A stretch of 64,000 nucleotides of DNA from Pardosa pseudoannulata (Eukaryota; Arthropoda; Arachnida; Araneae; Lycosidae), in the NCBI GenBank assembly GCA_032207245.1, contig CM063503.1:103689387-103753386 (forward strand), written 5' to 3'. The position numbers were made by a program, and so were the translations under genes. How positions within the stretch are numbered: the first letter of the stretch is position 1; each line of letters starts with the position of its first letter. Positions 1,544-62,388 of this stretch are shown one piece after another. The notes beneath the pieces are model-generated. The model ran no database searches and was not told where the DNA came from. It saw only the letters and a program-made list of their open reading frames with translations.

Positions 1544-20387
<18,844 letters not shown>

Positions 20388-27703: not shown

Positions 27704-27821
27704 TTATACTTTAGTTTCTGGTCCATCTGTACGAGCACGTGAGAATGAATTACGCAGTTTTATCAATAGAAGAGTACAAATATGTCCATAAGCTCTGTTA
27801 TACCATTCTGGAGATCTGCCT
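27704..27821 (-). CDS. DLC1: RhoGAP gene last exon
   Basis: Encodes [28 protein letters not shown] and a short tail before TAA at 27704-27706. MPEWYTKSFGHLC and KIRDSFS in DLC1 are the counterparts. Confidence 0.94.
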
Positions 27822-33800: not shown

Positions 33801-36800
33801 ACCAGAATGTTGACAGACTTCAGACAGGAATTCAAGCAGAGCTTGGAGAACTTCCCGATTTTCATCAGGCATTAACATCAAGGCTGCTTGAATGGCTTCC
33901 AGTCTTAAATCTTCTGGTATGACTAAAAGGTAGAAAATTTTTTTTAATAAAACATCATAAAAACAGGAAAATTAAAAAAAAAATTATTAAACTTAATCTT
34001 ACATTGGAAAATGCTGATAAAGGTTTCTGAAAGCTTGTTGGTAAGTAAAGCTTCAGGGAGTTCTCTAAAATACTGTTTCAACATGTCTGCTACATCATAA
34101 GCCTGTTGTTCTTCATAATTGATAGCATCAGGATTACTTTCATTAAGACTTTTTAACTTTTGAATTCTTGATCTTACACCTGACTTTCTGAATAAACCAG
34201 TAGAATCCAAAGCTGTTTTACGAAGATAATGGATTGCAGCTTGAATGGACACTGGTAAAGGTTGACCAGTCCTTTGAAGAATCAACAAAAGTGGTACTCC
34301 AAATACTACTTTATCTGTAAAAATAAAACAAGGTTCAATCTTTCATTCATATATTATTGTTCCTAGCATTCATGTTTAACAAATACCAGTGCTATGAAGA
34401 TTATCAGGATATAATTTTATTTATCCTGATAATCTTTAAAATTTTATGTAAAAATTAGTATGCATACTAAATAGTACCCATTCTAAAAAACTTTTTTAGT
34501 GATTGATGTATTACTTAACAAGTGAAGTGTCATCTTCAGAACAAAACTCAAAACACAGATACTTTGTTCTAAAAGCAACAGTAGCTAGACTAGCAACATA
34601 TTTAAATTTATTCCTTTGTATTATGTGTTTCCATTTCATCTTAATAAACCTTATTGTGCTGTTCTGTATATATTGTTAGTTTACTCACCATAATGTTAGC
34701 TTTTAATTTGTGTGAGACTAAAGCAGAACATAAGCAACTGTGTTATATTATAAATTTATTACAGCTTATAAAAATAGGTAAAATGAAGAACAAAATTTAC
34801 TTTATAAAAATTGAATTTCATATAGATGATAACAAACTGTATTTATTTTTTTCAGCAAATTTGAAAATTAGATCGATGCTGTATCATGTTAAATACATAT
34901 GCATTAGAAAATCTCTCTAGAAAAGAAAGCAATTATAAATTGTATAAAATAAAAAACCTCACTTTTTTTTACCAAATAGGAATTTCTGCAAACGAACTGC
35001 TAAACAGATAACTGAAATTCTCTTAGTCTCCAATGAAATTATGAAAACATTTACCTTTATAGTCTGGATTTCGGATGCGGCGAATAAATTTTGGTACAGC
35101 CCAGCTCCATCCTGTCCGACTTGAAGGTGAAAATTTTTCCATTAATGCTGTTAGTTTTAACAATGATAGTTTCCTCAATAACAGCATTTGAGGAGCAGTA
35201 AGATCTGTTATCTTTTCAGGAGATACAAATGATTTGACTTCTGATACTGCATGACATGGAAAACAGTGCCAGGGAGCATGTATGCATGTAATTCCTCTGA
35301 AAGCAAAATAAAATTCAGTAAAATAATTATAGATTAATAAGAGTATATGGAATTTGTTATATTTGAAAAAAAAAATGCTTTATATTTTTTAACATTCTGC
35401 TCAGAACATTGGTCTAAAAAAGATTTTCAATCAGATCGACAGCCCAAAATCTTAATAGCAACGTTTTAACTTTCGACCATTATAAATTAAATCCTAAAAG
35501 TTTAGAAGAAATAGTAACTAACATAAATAGCAGAAGCCGTGAACACAATATATTACTAGAAACACTATTATATTACTAGCTTTTAGACAAATGGGAAACA
35601 TTTCAGTAGTTTGCAGTCCTACAATTAACTTTTTGCTCTATGAGGGATAATTAGATTGGAGGTCTTCGCTTAGAGCCAATTCTTAATGACTATAAACATC
35701 CATGCACACGGCGTCATTCAAACCCATGGCGGTACCGAAAGGCGTCATACCCATTCGCTAATCGCCAGGTGGGAAATATTTAAGTGACAGACAGATGTGA
35801 ATGTGATACAAATCTAAATGTTTTGTGTTTAATGAAAAAAAATTGATATGCGTACGAAATACACATATATACACATAACCGGTAAAAACATTCTTTGCCT
35901 ATCATATAGGAGATAAAACCCTTTATTTTGATAGCCAAAGCTTGGCAGTGTATCTCAGATGCATTCATCATGACGAGAAAAGCTCGCACTGAACTCAGGA
36001 TCAGGCGAAATACTTAGTAAAAATCCTTTATTTTTATCTTAATGACGCAGAACTGCCATCCGCATCTTACGCAGACAAGAGACAAACGTGCATCAGTTTG
36101 ATCTGTGAAAAAACTGCCTTGAGGAGGCGAAAATCACGTGAATGACTTCCCATGAGGAAGAGTTTTAAATCAGCGCTTCTTTTGTGGCTTGTTAAAACAT
36201 TAGTGGTAAAAATGCAAACTACGGCAATAATAAGATCTTCTCTTGGGAGAATTGACAACTGGATTAAAGAAGGAAAAGAAAGGGTCATAAGTAGAGATTA
36301 TAAATTCAATCCTTAGCTTGGGGAAGTGTGGAAGGAATGCGAAACTCAATTATTGATAACTTTGACTTATTTTAGGGGACTGGGAAAGTTAAGATTAAAA
36401 AAAGGAGAACAAATTAGAAATTAGGAGACTTTTGAACTTTTTGGGCTATAATTTTTTTTTATATATTACATATATACATACACATACCCACTGAGTTATC
36501 AATATTTAGAATAAGATATTTTCGAATTGTGATAAATTACTAAAGTGAAATGTTAAAGTAATAATTATAGAATTAAATAGCTTAAAATAAATGAGGGATG
36601 TTAAATAGGACAAATGGAAAAAGGTTAATACAGAAGAAGCTGTTTCGTAGCTGTAACATTTCGGTGCAATATACCAAATGTTAACAGGTTTCCTCAGCCT
36701 AAGGTAGTTGAATTCCTAGTCTTCTCCCAAATTCGTACAAGACATAATTCTCTCTCTTAAATGGGCGACTTTCCCTTCGATCGTGCGTATTTACCACTGC

Positions 36801-39800
36801 CAACGATAACAAACGTAGAAGATCCTAGAAGCCATATCGGGTCCTCGATCGGTACATGACAGCATGTCTTCCGATTTTATGTTGACCTTTTCATTTCATT
36901 AATATATTTTTAAAAATTTTACAAAGACTTTTTGTTTTTCTTAAATTTTCACATGAAGGATTTGAAAATAATTTGGTTTGTCAGCAGAAGTCTTTTGAAC
37001 AGTATATAATTTGAACTGCGGAAACATAATAATAAACTAGCCACTGCTCTGCAAGTATTTAATCTGAACTATATTATACCACCAGTCATTAAAGGGAAAA
37101 AATTTATTATTGCTATTACGGAAAGGGCAAAAGTCTGTCTACTTTTATCTCACTGCAAAAATAAATTTCAAATTTCGCGCAAAACTGTACCTAGTCACCG
37201 AATATGCCACGTGGATAGGTCCACGTTCTTGAGATGAGTTAGTTTCAATGGTAACGTGCGTATTAAGTTCATGGAACAGATTTTCACATACTACTTTATC
37301 TAAAAAAAATATAGAATTTTTTTAACCCTTCAGAAGAGGTTAATAAACAATAATTGGTATAAACTTCAACCTATAAATTCAACACTAAAAAAAGCTTGTA
37401 ATGTGAAGACTAAGTTCTTTTAGGGAAACAGTGTGTATTTTAAATAAAATCCCTTAAAATAACAGATTGTTGAATTCGGCGACTGTAGGTCCATCGGTCT
37501 TTGCGAGATATAAATTTACATACATACACATAGGCCTTCCCTTAATATTAATAAAAATTACCTGGTCAGCGATGATCCAACACCGGAATCACGTCTCTCG
37601 GTATTTATCACTATAATATCCCCATCTTCTTGATTTTGAGGAGAGTCTCGACTTTTTAAGGATGAATGAAACGCTTTAGTTTTCGCTAAAATGACAAAAT
37701 AACAAACCAATGCTCAATGAATATATTTTGGAATATATAGTTTAAAAAATTCAAATATCATACTTTCGCGTTCATTGTTGACTTTCATAAAATACAGTCA
37801 AAACAATTTTTAAAATTACAAGCTATATGGGTATAATAGAACTTAACCATAACTTTTCAGGAGTATTTGAATAATGATTAGTAAAACCAATAAATAGTGC
37901 ATTTTTTATGTAGGTACTACTTATATTTTTGAAAATTGAAACATTATTAAAATACTTCATATAAGTTCATCCTATATAAAATCACTAATAAAAAAAAAAA
38001 AAGGCAGTGGCTCAGATATGCCAAGCACAAAAGAAACTTATTTTAGAAATAATGTTAAAAGAGCTGCAAATTACACTCTAATAAAAATTGTTTTAATGCT
38101 ACCTGAGCTTAGTTGTCACCTTTTTTTTTTAACGCTTTTACACCTATTATCACCAATGTCTGGACATTAGCAAATTGGTTATTCCTTGCCGGTGACATTA
38201 ACATAATGCACTTATTTAACCCAATGTAACTATTTTAAGGGGACATAGTAACTTCCAAGACTTGAAAACCTTCATTATAACAGTCTTTTATCAATTCCTT
38301 ATAAAATGAAATGTTTTGCTCCTTTTAAGTGAATTTTTTACAAACTGTTTAATAACGTTCTAGTTTAAAAAAATTGTTCAATTTTGCCATTTCAAGTAGT
38401 GTACTTTTTTATAATAACGTAGAAAATACACACCAAATGAAAAAAGAAGAAATGATTTAAATTATAAAAAATATTGAAAAGTTAGGAAATTGAAATTTTA
38501 AATAAAATTAGCCTTTATCATGCTGTAAAATAAAATATATTACTCGTATTAATATAACTATGGTCCACAAAATAAAAAAAAATGATAACTAGCTTTTATT
38601 TGATATGAAGAATTATTTTCTAATTTAAAAGTTTACTTTGCAGATAAGTAGATTTCTACTTTTATCACTTGGTCCAAACTTACGTGGCTACGTGCTTCTT
38701 ATATATGAAAATCAAATGAATTTTATAAAAATGGAACTTTATTAAAGATTTAGGAAAAATTTTGTTCTAAAATGAGCAGAACTTTTTATTTTATGCTGAG
38801 TCAAAAATAGGCTATTATAATAAAGATTTTTCAGTTCGTAAAGTACTATCTGACCCTTAACAAATGTAGACTTTTGTTGCAATGGAGTTATTATATTTTT
38901 AAGAGAAGTTTAATAAAAATATAATTAAACAAGAATATATCGTAATTTTTTTCAGTAACTTTGATAAATTACATTTGTTTACATGTACCATTTCACAAAC
39001 GATAGCTAATTTTATTATGTGGTAATAAACTGTATGCTACATTTGTATATTTATACAAATGTACAAAAAAGTACAAAAAAAATTACAAATTACAAAAAAA
39101 ATTTTTTTTGTGAATTATGCGGAAGATTTAAGTAAATAAAGGGAAAAACAATGCGGGTTTTGATTATATCACATATTTAAAGAACTGTTGGATTCGATCA
39201 TTGAAGCTGAAATGCTGAATAGGTTGGCTTTTATGTTGAGCTTAATAGAAAAAAACACAAATCCCTGTAAGTAATCAAAAATATCTTTTTATACAAATTA
39301 AATAAGAACTAACGAGTATAATACAGAGATGTAAAAACGGAAAGCACAATTATACATCTATTTGGAAGCTGTAGTCACAATAGAGAATTCCTGCAATGGA
39401 TAATTTCTAATTGTTATTTAGAAAACACCTGATTATTTACTATTTAGGGAAAAGGAGAAAGACTGGTTGTTGTAGTTTCTAAACTGTATTTTATATGTCT
39501 TTTGAAAAATACTGACATTTGTATTTAAATTTATTTATACTTTTAAGCAAAAGCTTCCCCAAAGACTTATTCTCGAGTTTATAAAAATTTTTGTTATACA
39601 TCACGGATATTTGCAGTTTGAGTCTAGATTATCAACTAGATCGTTAACTAGAAAAATACGTCAAGTCAATAAGTTGAAAGGAGAAATTTATAAAACGAGG
39701 TTTTGGAAGAGTCATACAAGTAAAATTTTACAAAATATTTATAGCCAAAACAGAATATTGATCCGAGTAAGAACATCTAATTTACCTTTTCTGATGCAAA

Positions 39801-42800: not shown

Positions 42801-45127
42801 TATTTCAGTTAAGAGCACGCATTTTATGCTTATAAACTTACATATAATAATCCGAATTTTTATAGTAGTTTCAATAGTTTCCAATTTGGTGATAAAGTAA
42901 ACAATTGCTATATGAGAGTGAATCAGAAATTAAGTTTCTCACAATGCCAAAAGATGGCTCTTCAAAAGCCACGAAATACGATGGCACTAGGTAAATTGAG
43001 AGTCGGAATGTCGTACACGGAAGTTGTAAATTCCCGATTTCTCTTATTAACATCAGATGTCGGCTCTTATTTCGGATCACGTTTTTGAACAAATAGAAAG
43101 TAGCGGCGATCGAAATCCATCTTCAGTTGTGCTTAGTGTGTGAACCAGATGTCATGATCGAGCTGATGGTTAGTCTTTGGTATCGGGTTTTTTCCTAAAG
43201 TAGGTAAAATGTCAGCCCTGAAGCCGGCCTTCAAACCACTAAGTCCATTCTCAGGTCGCAGACTTCTTTCACACTAGGCTACAAAAACTTGTCCACGGCA
43301 AGTGTTTTAATTCCGGTGGCTATCGTATTGAGGAGGAGATGAAATATTACTGTAGCTTTTGTAATAAATCTTTCCGGGTAATTTATTTATTTTTTTTTTT
43401 ACGAGCAATGGAAAACTTACTTTCTGGATGACTCTCATATTACACAATGTAAAGGGGAATCTTGCATTTCAAACAGATTCAATAATATTACAAACATGTC
43501 TATAAATATTTCAAATCATTCTTTCTCAATTCTTCTTTTATCCTATATCTAGGAATAAAAATATTGGTAAACCTTCTCCCAGATCAGGTAAAATCTTTAT
43601 GAAACTCGAGTTTAATGGAATTTGTTTGAACATTCAAAATGAGACATTTTGTTCAAGAATTCATTATTGAAAAATATTGCAACGAAGCTTAAATAATAAA
43701 ACGCTATGGTACAAAAGTATTTTTAAATGAAAAAACAGTTAAAGAGTTTAAAAAGACTTACCGTTATAGTTATGCCCTGGACTTCTGTCTAAACTTTCAG
43801 TACACATGTCATTGAAGACAACAATTGGAGCACATATATTATCGTAATAACTTCCCCTTTTATCACAGCTACTAAATTCTTGATTTGCACTAGAACCCGG
43901 ATGAAGCAACTGATTTTGCGGCACATTTGTTTTAGTATATGATTTTTTAGAATCAGATTTTGAGTTAATTGTTAAATCATCTGTAGCAGATGTTATAGTA
44001 ACTGTAGTCTGTGATGTTATGAACTGTTTAAAATGTTTTGTGTTATTACTATTAGCATCCTTCCAATTGTCCGATACCAAATACATTCGGCATTCTGAAT
44101 CACTGTGAGCACCAGTATCATCACTATTTTTAGAATTAACATCACCATCTTTTTTGTCACTAACCTTTAAATCAGTGTTATGTATACTGTCTGGTACTCT
44201 ATGAGATCTATGGAATTGAGGAGATGATGTTAAACTACTAGATGAACTACCATCAGTGCCGCTATAAGGAACTGGACTTTTCTTTTCGGTTTTGTTTGAA
44301 TCATGGCCTTTTTTCTTCCTCTTTCCTTTCAAACTTTCCATTCTTCTAAGCAAAGCTTTAGCACCTTCTTTCACTCTGTCACTTCCACTTCTACGTAGAC
44401 TGCGACGTTCATGAAAATCCTCAGAAGCTAAACTCAGGGTACCACCAGAACCAGAGCTTGATCCTGGGCTACAGTCCCCAACATGACTGGTTGGTGACAC
44501 GGATATCCTGTCTGGTTTAAGTATTGATGAACGCCTGACACTATCTGGACTACTATGTTGTTCATCAATGAAGACGCTGTCGTGACTGCTGCAGTAAGCT
44601 TCTTCTGGACTAAGATATTTTCTCCCCGGTACCGTAAAGAACTGACCAGTTTGTTTAGCAGGTTCTGGAAGATCAGGAGCCACAAATTCGGAAATTCCAT
44701 CTGATGAGGCAGTGATTCGAGACCATCGCCTGCTTGAACGCTGGAACTCCCAGTTTTCACTTAAAGCATATTGCTCTTCATCATCACTGTCTTCCATACG
44801 CAGCTAAAGGAAGTAAAGATTTCATTTTATTTGCATGACAAAGCAATTATAAGACAAGCAATTAAAAATTATAAAATTATCTCCTACAGTTCATAACTAG
44901 TTAGCTTAAAAAATATTTTTTTTCTAATATCACGAGGCAGAAATTCTTCACATAAGTAAATAGCAAAAAGAACTAATACTGGCAAAAGATGCATTAAACA
45001 GAACTAAAAATTAAAGTATAATTGAATTAAATATAATTAAATGAATGCATTCAGTACAAAAAGTTACATATAGGTACAGAACTATTTAATACAAACAAGT
45101 AGTGAAATTAATTTTATATTATATTAC

Positions 45128-58805: not shown

Positions 58806-59132
<327 letters not shown>

Positions 59133-59665: not shown

Positions 59666-60330
59666 ACACGAAGCCGAAGACATGACAACAGATAAGTGAT
59701 TTCTTTTCTTTTTGACAAGCACTCAAGGAACTTTATTAATTTTGTCATCCTGACAAATGAAGAAGAGTTTCTGATTTGAATTCACCCTGAATTCGTTTTG
59801 TTTTATTATGATCATCCAGATCAAATTTAAATACCGCATGCCAGTTCCTTTAGTGCCTGAAGATTGAAATTTGAATAGTTTGTGTTTCGGTCCAAGTTTT
59901 GAATTTTATTTTTCTTAACATTTTTATTATTAGGACTTATGGATATTGTTAATTTCAATTGTTTTGATTAATAATTCATGAAGATAGTTAATATTTCAGT
60001 GTTGAATATTGGTGCAAGTTCAATTTAATTTGGATTTTTGTATTAATAACAAAAGATATTGCTCAAGTTAATGTTCTTTTTTTGTGTTGCTTATTATTTA
60101 ATTTTCCATCGATGATTCTTTTTAATAGAAATATTATGTATCTGAAATATTTGTATAATTAAGAAGTATTATTTTATTCCTTCAAATTTATTGATACTTC
60201 CGGTTTCAAATCGAAATAATATAGTTTAGTTGATTAATCAGATGTATGCATATTATGTCATTCTAATGAGCCATTCTCGCAGTAATTGAGTTTTACCATT
60301 AATTTTAAGTTTGGCCTGAAAAGAATAAAA
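59666..60330 (+). other. Leader between primer-binding site and gag
   Basis: AT-rich untranslated leader of about 660 bases with no long open frame. Confidence 0.6.
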
Positions 60331-62388
60331 ATGGCATATCTTGCTAGAGGTAAAAAATGCGACCTTTTGGTTTTGGCCGCAGAATTAGGCATTGAGTTGG
60401 AACCCGACGCCACAGTAATAAAAATTAAAGATGTTATAACCGGATGTACTTCATATGACGAAGAATTCACAAAAACATTGTTGGATACAATCATTAGCAC
60501 CAGAAAAGAATCCGAAGTAAAAGAAAAGGAAGCAGAAACCGAAAGACGGCAAATGGAATTTGAATTAGAGAAACTAAAGTTACAAAATTTAAATCATGCT
60601 TCGGAAACAGGAACCGTTCTTACCGATAGTGATACGGATGTATCTAAATTTGAAATTAAAGCGTTAATCCCTCAGTTTGACCCGAAGGTAGATGACATTA
60701 GTACGTTTTTAAACCTTTTCGAGAGACAACTGTCATTTTTGAAAATACCAGAATCAAAATGGGTGGTATATCTGATCGGGCTTTTACCTATTGAAATTTC
60801 AAAATTAATTGCTATAGAATCGGATTCTCCGGATAAACCACCGGAATATGGGGAAATAAAAAAAATTTTATTACGTCGATTCAAGATGAGTGCAGAGAAA
60901 TTCCGACAATTTTTCGTCCAACACAGAAAAAATCCAGACTCCACGTGGAGAGATTATTTCTATGATTTGAGAAAATATTTTGAAGGTTGGCTCAGTGAGC
61001 TTAATATCACTACATTTGATCAGTTAAAAGATCTAATAATTTCTGATCAAATCAAAAAGAAGTGTCCTCCGGATTACAAAGATCATTTTTTAGATCACTG
61101 GAGTGAATTGAGCGATCCAGTTGCTTTAGTTGATAAGCTAGATGCTTATGAAGAAAGTAGAAACTTAAAAGGTAGAAACACGAACCATGAACAACATAGA
61201 ATGGAAAATTCTAAGCCGAGTAACAATTTAAGAAATTTTAAGAATAGTGTTAATTATAAATACTCAACGAATAGAACTGTTAATAAAATTAACGAAAGAC
61301 CTATTAGCTGCTATGGCTGTGGGAAACCTGGTTTCATAAAGGCAAAATGCCCTACGTGTTCCCCAAACATTAAAGTTGATTCCGCCCAGGTTAGTTGCTT
61401 GAAATTTCAAACGTGTGCGATACAGGAACCCAAGGCAATGTTAATGAAGATTAAAATAAATGGTATGTGGGGTTTAGCATGTGCCGACACTGGATCCAGC
61501 CACACTGTTGCTGGAGAAACCCTGTATAACCTCCTCCGAGAACAAGGGGTAATTTTTCGTAAAGTGAATTTAAATATAACACTCGCGGACGGAGTGCCGA
61601 AATTCTCTGAAGTTTATAATACCGAAATAGACATTGAATTGTTAGGGAAAAGAATTCCTACTACACTATTTGTATTACCTACAGCTAAGGACAATCGAAC
61701 TCTCCTTGGTACTGATTTTTTATCCAAAGCTGGTGTTAGCTTGGATACTCAGAACAGGAAATGGTATTTCAACAGTAATCCTAGGAAAAAATTCAATTTT
61801 GAGAAAGATACATTTATACCAGCTTGTGTGCCACATAAAAACTCTTTCGAATCCTCAGGTAATTCGCAAAACATTAGCACTATATCATCCGATAAAATTA
61901 TTGTGTCTCCTGAGCTGAACATTTGCGTTTTGAAAGAAACTGAAGGCAGTCACTTATCTGCCGAGGAAAGGTTACAATTATGTAAACTGTTAGAAATGTT
62001 TACGGATATCTTTCAGCCAGGGGAAGAGCCTACACCTAGAATTAAACATTATATAGACACTGGTAATAATCTCCCTGTAGCTATGCCACCATATCGCATG
62101 TCTCCATTAAAGAAGGACATTCTTAAGAAAGAGTTAGAGAATCTTTTGGCCAATGGCACAATTGAAGAATGTGAGTCACCGTATGCCTCACCAGTGGTGC
62201 TAGTTCCAAAACCTAATGGTCAATTTCGCCTTTGTGTGGACTACAGAAAGTTGAATTCCACTATAAAAACGGATAAATACCCTCTGCCTAGAATGGATGA
62301 TTTGCTCCATGAAGCTAAAACATACTCCTTACATGTCAACGATAGATTTAAGATCCGGATATCACCAAATCGAGGTAAATCCCACTGA
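60331..62388 (+). pseudogene. gag-protease-RT(N) of the gypsy element
   Basis: I chose the Met at 60331 (MAYLARGKKCDLL); an in-frame Met at 60286 is 15 codons earlier. Residues about 60-95 form a charged helix, followed by a gag core (WRDYFYDLRKYFEGWLSEL). A zinc-knuckle-like CYGCGKPGFIKAKC begins at residue 327, with Phe where the CCHC His is expected. The protease active site DTGSS is at residue 386. RT begins near residue 590 (ANGTIEECESPYASPVVLVP, RLCVDYRKLN). The frame is lost at the A-run 62317-62320 and runs to a TGA at 62388, so the polyprotein is cut early in RT. Confidence 0.92.

Follow-up and report, generated by a model that had tools for sequence, protein, structure and literature searches.

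The DLC-type RhoGAP gene of the spider Pardosa pseudoannulata carries, just downstream of the exon that encodes a conserved RRDSGVG segment (exon A), a candidate alternative exon (exon B) that fits the same place in the reading frame. B probably is, or once was, an exon. We tentatively favor, at somewhat short of an even chance, a reading in which B is an in-frame alternative to A, kept exclusive by reading frame and NMD, whose use would remove RRDSGVG and might add an LD-like helix.

One gene was assembled exon by exon on the minus strand of the window (the whole 64,000-nt stretch of DNA that was analyzed), giving 14 exons in addition to candidate B. The model covers 27704-53737 on the minus strand and ends at 27704 with a stop codon; residues are counted from the first full SAM codon, and the 5' end lies outside the model. 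Pfam matches SAM_2 (residues 7-63), RhoGAP (562-706) and START (794-979) in that order, with a linker between SAM and RhoGAP. The nearest relatives are spider proteins, with 81% identity to that of Trichonephila inaurata over 95% of a 581-residue query. On the strength of this domain order and identity, the gene is, by homology, a spider DLC-type RhoGAP. It shares SAM, linker, RhoGAP and START with DLC1-3 and Drosophila Cv-c (PMC5854602). The original prediction had called the gene a DLC1/cv-c-type RhoGAP; the Pfam domains uphold the DLC assignment, and "cv-c-type" is too loose a term, as none of the 35 relatives from named insects and crustaceans has RRDSGVG. A protein search of the 2.4-Gb genome with the B-D-GAP part found no second DLC-like gene, the best other match being a RhoGAP stretch at 31% identity, and no paralog or retrocopy carrying B.

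Three further exons of the model, all on the minus strand, bear on the argument. Exon 4 (E4, 43762-44803) has an open frame and encodes a serine-rich linker that, by reading, resembles the linkers of spider DLC proteins; it leaves in phase 1 through the donor ACG/GTAAGT and is the upstream partner of both A and B. Exon D (35055-35296), homologous to spider DLC proteins, enters in phase 2, is the downstream partner of both and encodes the beginning of the region ahead of the GAP domain. The first RhoGAP-domain exon (G1, 34003-34314), placed by its RhoGAP match, begins ATAAAGTAGTATTTG. The intron between E4 and D measures 8,465 nt, contains A and B, and offers 430 AG and 432 GT sites.

Exon A (37562-37685, minus strand, 124 nt, phase 1 to 2) encodes ERRDSGVGSSLTR and is the canonical exon at this place. 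Its RRDSGVGSSL is found in all six relatives of a first search, namely two Trichonephila, Oedothorax, Caerostris, Centruroides and one unnamed protein, these being the matches among 53 candidates to a query made of the B-D part of the protein. For a wider set we scored 7992 candidates and kept the best 120 of 790 matches together with the earlier ones, 124 proteins in all. A pattern search recovered RRDSGVG or a close variant in 78 of these 124 best-scoring matches (a subset of the 790). Of the 46 proteins lacking it, 35 are all those from named insects and crustaceans; the rest are three vertebrate models, two tick models that are short at the N-end, and six proteins that are unnamed. The claim that the segment is conserved ahead of the GAP region thus holds for both chelicerate and vertebrate relatives, and its position before the GAP domain is shared with most of the vertebrate DLC relatives compared. 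Within these relatives the segment was seen in chelicerates, molluscs, an annelid (Capitella) and most vertebrates, and in none of the 35 named insects and crustaceans; given this distribution, it seems to have been lost in the insect/crustacean lineage.

We take the serine of RRDSGVG to be, very probably, S549 of human DLC1, a PKA site. Human DLC1 has 1091 residues, and the distance from RRDS to the C-terminus is 540-541 residues in the three vertebrate relatives measured, so the equivalence fits to within one or two residues. A passage of a paper on fish (PMC5589669) states, citing others, that PKA phosphorylation of DLC1 enhances its GAP activity. The idea that DSGVGS is a beta-TrCP degron was dropped, a literature search judged by titles having found no such report for DLC1. 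A second, weaker donor lies within exon A at 37584; it would remove the last 22 nt, after RRDS, and its phase does not fit D.

Exon B (37191-37299, minus strand, 109 nt) encodes DKVVCENLFHELNTHVTIETNSSQERGPIHVAYSVTR in an open frame, and its splice-scan score is high. The predicted coordinates of both exons, their AG and GT splice dinucleotides, their open frames and their entry in phase 1 and exit in phase 2 are all present in the DNA as claimed. At 124 and 109 nt, both lengths leave a remainder of one when divided by three. With either exon the full model remains open; counted from the first full SAM codon, it has 996 residues with A and 991 with B. The two further claims about frame are likewise borne out: an E4-A-B-D transcript stops at the first codon after A, and an E4-D transcript, with both skipped, runs for 29 codons in a shifted frame before a stop. 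A and B therefore have what is expected of neighboring exclusive exons, in that they are entered and left in the same phases, their splice sites are compatible, and using both or neither breaks the frame; they also show a feature expected of a poison exon, as including B along with A introduces a premature stop.

We scored splice sites with a model trained on this gene's own 14 acceptors and 13 donors, among them those of A but none from B. The scan of the intron admitted candidates of 30-300 nt, open and either frame-compatible or of cassette type, with a sum of at least 9.0 and each site at 2.5 or above, the cut-off of 9.0 being set just below the weakest left-out real exon (9.2). Four candidates passed: A at the top (18.4), B (16.3), a shortened A (12.6) and the next independent one (9.1). 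B is thus the second-best candidate of the 8,465-nt intron, in keeping with its prediction as an exon, and its score, obtained untrained, is above the 11.1 that A reaches when left out of training. Among the sites of the intron, the donor of A ranks 3rd of 432 and the acceptor of B 2nd of 430; the donor of B (TAG/GTACAG) is weak and ranks 41st of 432. As a control, 20 stretches of 10 kb were drawn at random from this genome, and both strands (333,856 strand-bases) were searched for open phase-1-to-2 candidates of 60-250 nt. Two reached the score of B, neither of them as long as 109 nt, so that chance would be expected to yield about 0.05 B-like candidates in this intron, and a greater number across the entire gene. 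By codon score (0.077-0.082) B lies close to A, D and SAM2 and far below several other real exons; of 2292 control stretches free of stops, 229 reach its value. This score does not single out the open frame of B, since a frame with seven stops scores 0.124 against 0.082; for A, too, another frame marginally outscores the open one. Taken together, the splice, frame and codon evidence for B as an exon is suggestive, and B is probably not due to chance. A DNA search with B and its flanks, which skips simple repeats and very common words, found only B itself in the genome and, within that scope, rules out a repeat origin.

The two ends of B resemble two different exons of the same gene. As predicted, the last 13 residues of A and B are alike, with six identities (E, R, V, S, T and R), the final R being partly imposed by the AG/GT donor. 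The end-anchored BLOSUM score of 20 is reached by 0.03% of 20,000 shuffles of B at that length and by 0.57% at any length, and none of 837 open donor-adjacent controls matches the end of A as well as B does. At the DNA level, the last 21 nt of B (37191-37211, minus strand) are identical to those of A at 14 positions, the best of 1062 AG/GT control donors reaching 13 of 21. The other end of B, on which the original prediction had not remarked, resembles G1: the first 15 nt of the two exons agree at 14 positions, where the best of 1910 pyrimidine-rich control acceptors reached 11 of 15 against any of the 14 exon starts. This likeness extends 9 nt into the introns and then ends, giving a 24-nt stretch across the acceptor of B (37285-37308, minus strand; repeat family D4) that matches the G1 acceptor (34300-34323), 2,985 nt away, at 88%; judged as a simple match within the window, it reaches an E value of only 0.026. 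These end tests were chosen after B was seen, and the control counts overstate the case accordingly. With a 3' end like A and a 5' end like G1, both beyond controls, the likenesses argue that B was made from, or is shaped like, parts of this gene.

Exon duplication had been proposed from the shared end. The proposal is supported for the 3' end, over the last 13 residues or 21 nt, and lacks support for the exon as a whole. BLASTP finds no alignment over the full lengths of A and B, and their global score of -6 is at noise level (reached by 328 of 5000 shuffles), so that a plain tandem copy of A finds no support as the origin of B. Because the likeness is confined to that terminal stretch, the two fall outside the homologous type of exon pair. 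Compared with the exons treated by WebScipio (Pillmann et al. 2011, PMC3228551), A and B are similar in length (42 vs 37 residues) and have the same phases and compatible GT-AG sites, whereas their A:B to A:A score ratio is -3% against the minimal exon score of 15% quoted there for neighboring exons.

We also considered whether B is dead or unused, that is, an old or chimeric copy of gene pieces (the end of A, the acceptor of G1) or a neutral pseudo-exon that is rarely or never spliced, and regard this as rather unlikely. B was not seen, by reading, in any of the six proteins that carry RRDSGVGSSL from the first search, which come from clusters at 90% identity that would hide B isoforms. A protein search with B and short flanks returned no candidate from a database clustered at 90% identity, and across the 124 proteins, drawn from the same isoform-hiding clusters, 39 of 100 shuffles did as well as the top score of B (without DKVV). 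As a B isoform would fall into the 90% cluster of its A isoform, this lack of B in relatives is weak evidence. The noise-level global similarity of A and B and the weak donor of B are also what a dead exon would be expected to show, and the likenesses at its two ends, unequal in strength and each with another exon as its apparent source, could be read as patchwork debris. Against this, B has kept an open frame, the right phases, the second-best acceptor of the intron and a codon score comparable to those of some real exons; one would expect decay to have destroyed one or more of these features.

In the favored reading, where B is used in place of A, some transcripts would join E4 directly to B and then B to D. 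Exon A, with its kinase-type R-R-D-S-G-V-G site, would be exchanged for a 37-residue segment that lacks the site, and the reading frame would separate the two exons, because a transcript with both stops right after A and should undergo NMD. The likely outcome would be a GAP that is no longer tunable at the RRDS site, and the B isoform may offer an adhesion partner a short LD-like helix instead. The anatomy, the frames, the splice-site scores and the end similarities are seen in the DNA itself; the use of B in RNA, the NMD, the loss of kinase control and the LD-like binding are inferred.

The A-B intron (37300-37561, minus strand, GT-AG) is 262 nt long, and an intron of this length is too long for steric exclusion. 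Its predicted RNA fold is no better than that of shuffled sequence (z +0.84, with 161 of 200 shuffles folding at least as well), so exclusion by RNA structure gave no signal in the A-B intron; mutually exclusive splicing by steric block or by structure within this intron was accordingly set aside. Frame with NMD is thus the only enforcement seen. Frame and NMD are named as a mechanism for human mutually exclusive exons in a passage of Hatje et al. 2017 (PMC5740500). There the human set likewise consists of neighboring exons that are each in frame alone and give a frame shift and stop when included jointly; the human survey demands reads from each exon bridging the other, whereas the A/B pair is predicted from genomic DNA.

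The same geometry bears on a further explanation, in which B is a poison exon spliced in after A rather than in its place, so that A+B transcripts stop at once, are degraded, and leave some cells with less DLC. The strong donor of A faces the strong acceptor of B across 262 nt, a layout that should favor A-B joining, the stop-coding product with its stop at the first codon after A. These ranks (3rd of 432 and 2nd of 430) and the weak donor of B speak for this explanation. A poison exon would, however, need neither an open phase-1 frame, nor a fit to D, nor an A-like end, and B has all three, so we consider it unlikely.

That B arose by chance, as an open stretch that happens to have good splice signals and coincidental end similarities, is very improbable. 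In its favor, some 0.05 such candidates are expected in the intron and a larger number over the gene as a whole, B was picked after reading, its end tests were chosen after seeing it, and the 24-nt match to G1, taken simply as a match within the window, has an E value of only 0.026. Against it, both ends beat all 1910 and 1062 controls, on top of the splice and frame properties of B.

Returning to B as an alternative to A, we examined its LD-like segment. The prediction had compared ENLFHEL of B to EDIFPEL of human DLC1; this comparison is weak, and CENLFHEL better fits the LD motif LDDILYHV or the inverse LD consensus. LDDILYHV is given as the talin-binding LD motif of DLC1 in a passage of PMC4938799, and class II inverse LD motifs have D/E at +6 and L at +7 according to a passage of PMC7703752. 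Set against the DLC1 LD motif, which is bound by talin R8 and FAK (PMC4938799), CENLFHEL of B is acidic at +1 and +6 and has leucine at +3 and +7; it departs by a cysteine where the first leucine would stand and an F at +4, and any binding by B is putative. A strict LDxLLxxL-type pattern was found in none of the linkers of isoform B, isoform A and 11 other proteins (10 from named chelicerates and one unnamed), whereas five of the six annelid, mollusc and vertebrate relatives compared have a strict match. The absence of such a match from these 11 mostly chelicerate linkers and the absence of RRDSGVG from the 35 named insect and crustacean relatives are differences in the comparison with DLC1-3 and Cv-c. 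A loosened pattern, devised after B was seen, fits B alone among those linkers and is matched by 1.2% of 20,000 shuffles of B. We treat the putative LD-like helix as a lead only. The linker of a DLC relative from Tachypleus tridentatus contains CENLFMQEV about 95 residues before RQDSGVG, with five residues identical to CENLFHEL of B, possibly by chance.

DLC proteins brake Rho signaling, and RRDSGVG is common to chelicerate and vertebrate relatives. Were B used as an alternative to A, splicing would stand in for phosphorylation control, and a natural exon removing only RRDSGVG would be a ready-made test of the role of this site. Exclusive exons policed by reading frame are already known as a kind, to which the A/B pair would add an unproven member, and should the patchwork ends of B be confirmed in relatives, they would offer a modest example of a gene building an exon out of its own pieces. 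A literature search with spider exclusive exons, RhoGAP and crossveinless-c splicing, judged by titles, found no published account of a swap at this site. A bolder proposal is that spiders toggle their single DLC RhoGAP between A, with the RRDS kinase switch, and B, with an LD-like helix for adhesion proteins in another cell type, a helix that chelicerate linkers otherwise seem to be without, B having been pieced together from a G1-like start and an A-like end; we think it highly unlikely that all of this would hold together.

The window contains further features outside the gene. An open frame of 289 residues (10570-11439, minus strand) encodes a Tc-type transposase with HTH_Tnp_Tc3_2 and DDE_3 domains. 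On the plus strand, a 700-residue open frame (60286-62388) looks like part of a retrotransposon, with a zinc knuckle and DTGSS discerned by eye and no Pfam match at E 0.001. Upstream of the modeled gene, 100 N within a TA-rich repeat (58901-59000) mark an assembly gap. Elsewhere in the assembly, the small contig C16 (3.6 Mb) has 17 kinase-domain matches, 14 of them without stops, and a RhoGAP in one open frame; C19 (0.7 Mb) has three kinase-domain matches, two of them without stops. Both contigs may come from another, intron-poor eukaryote in the assembly.
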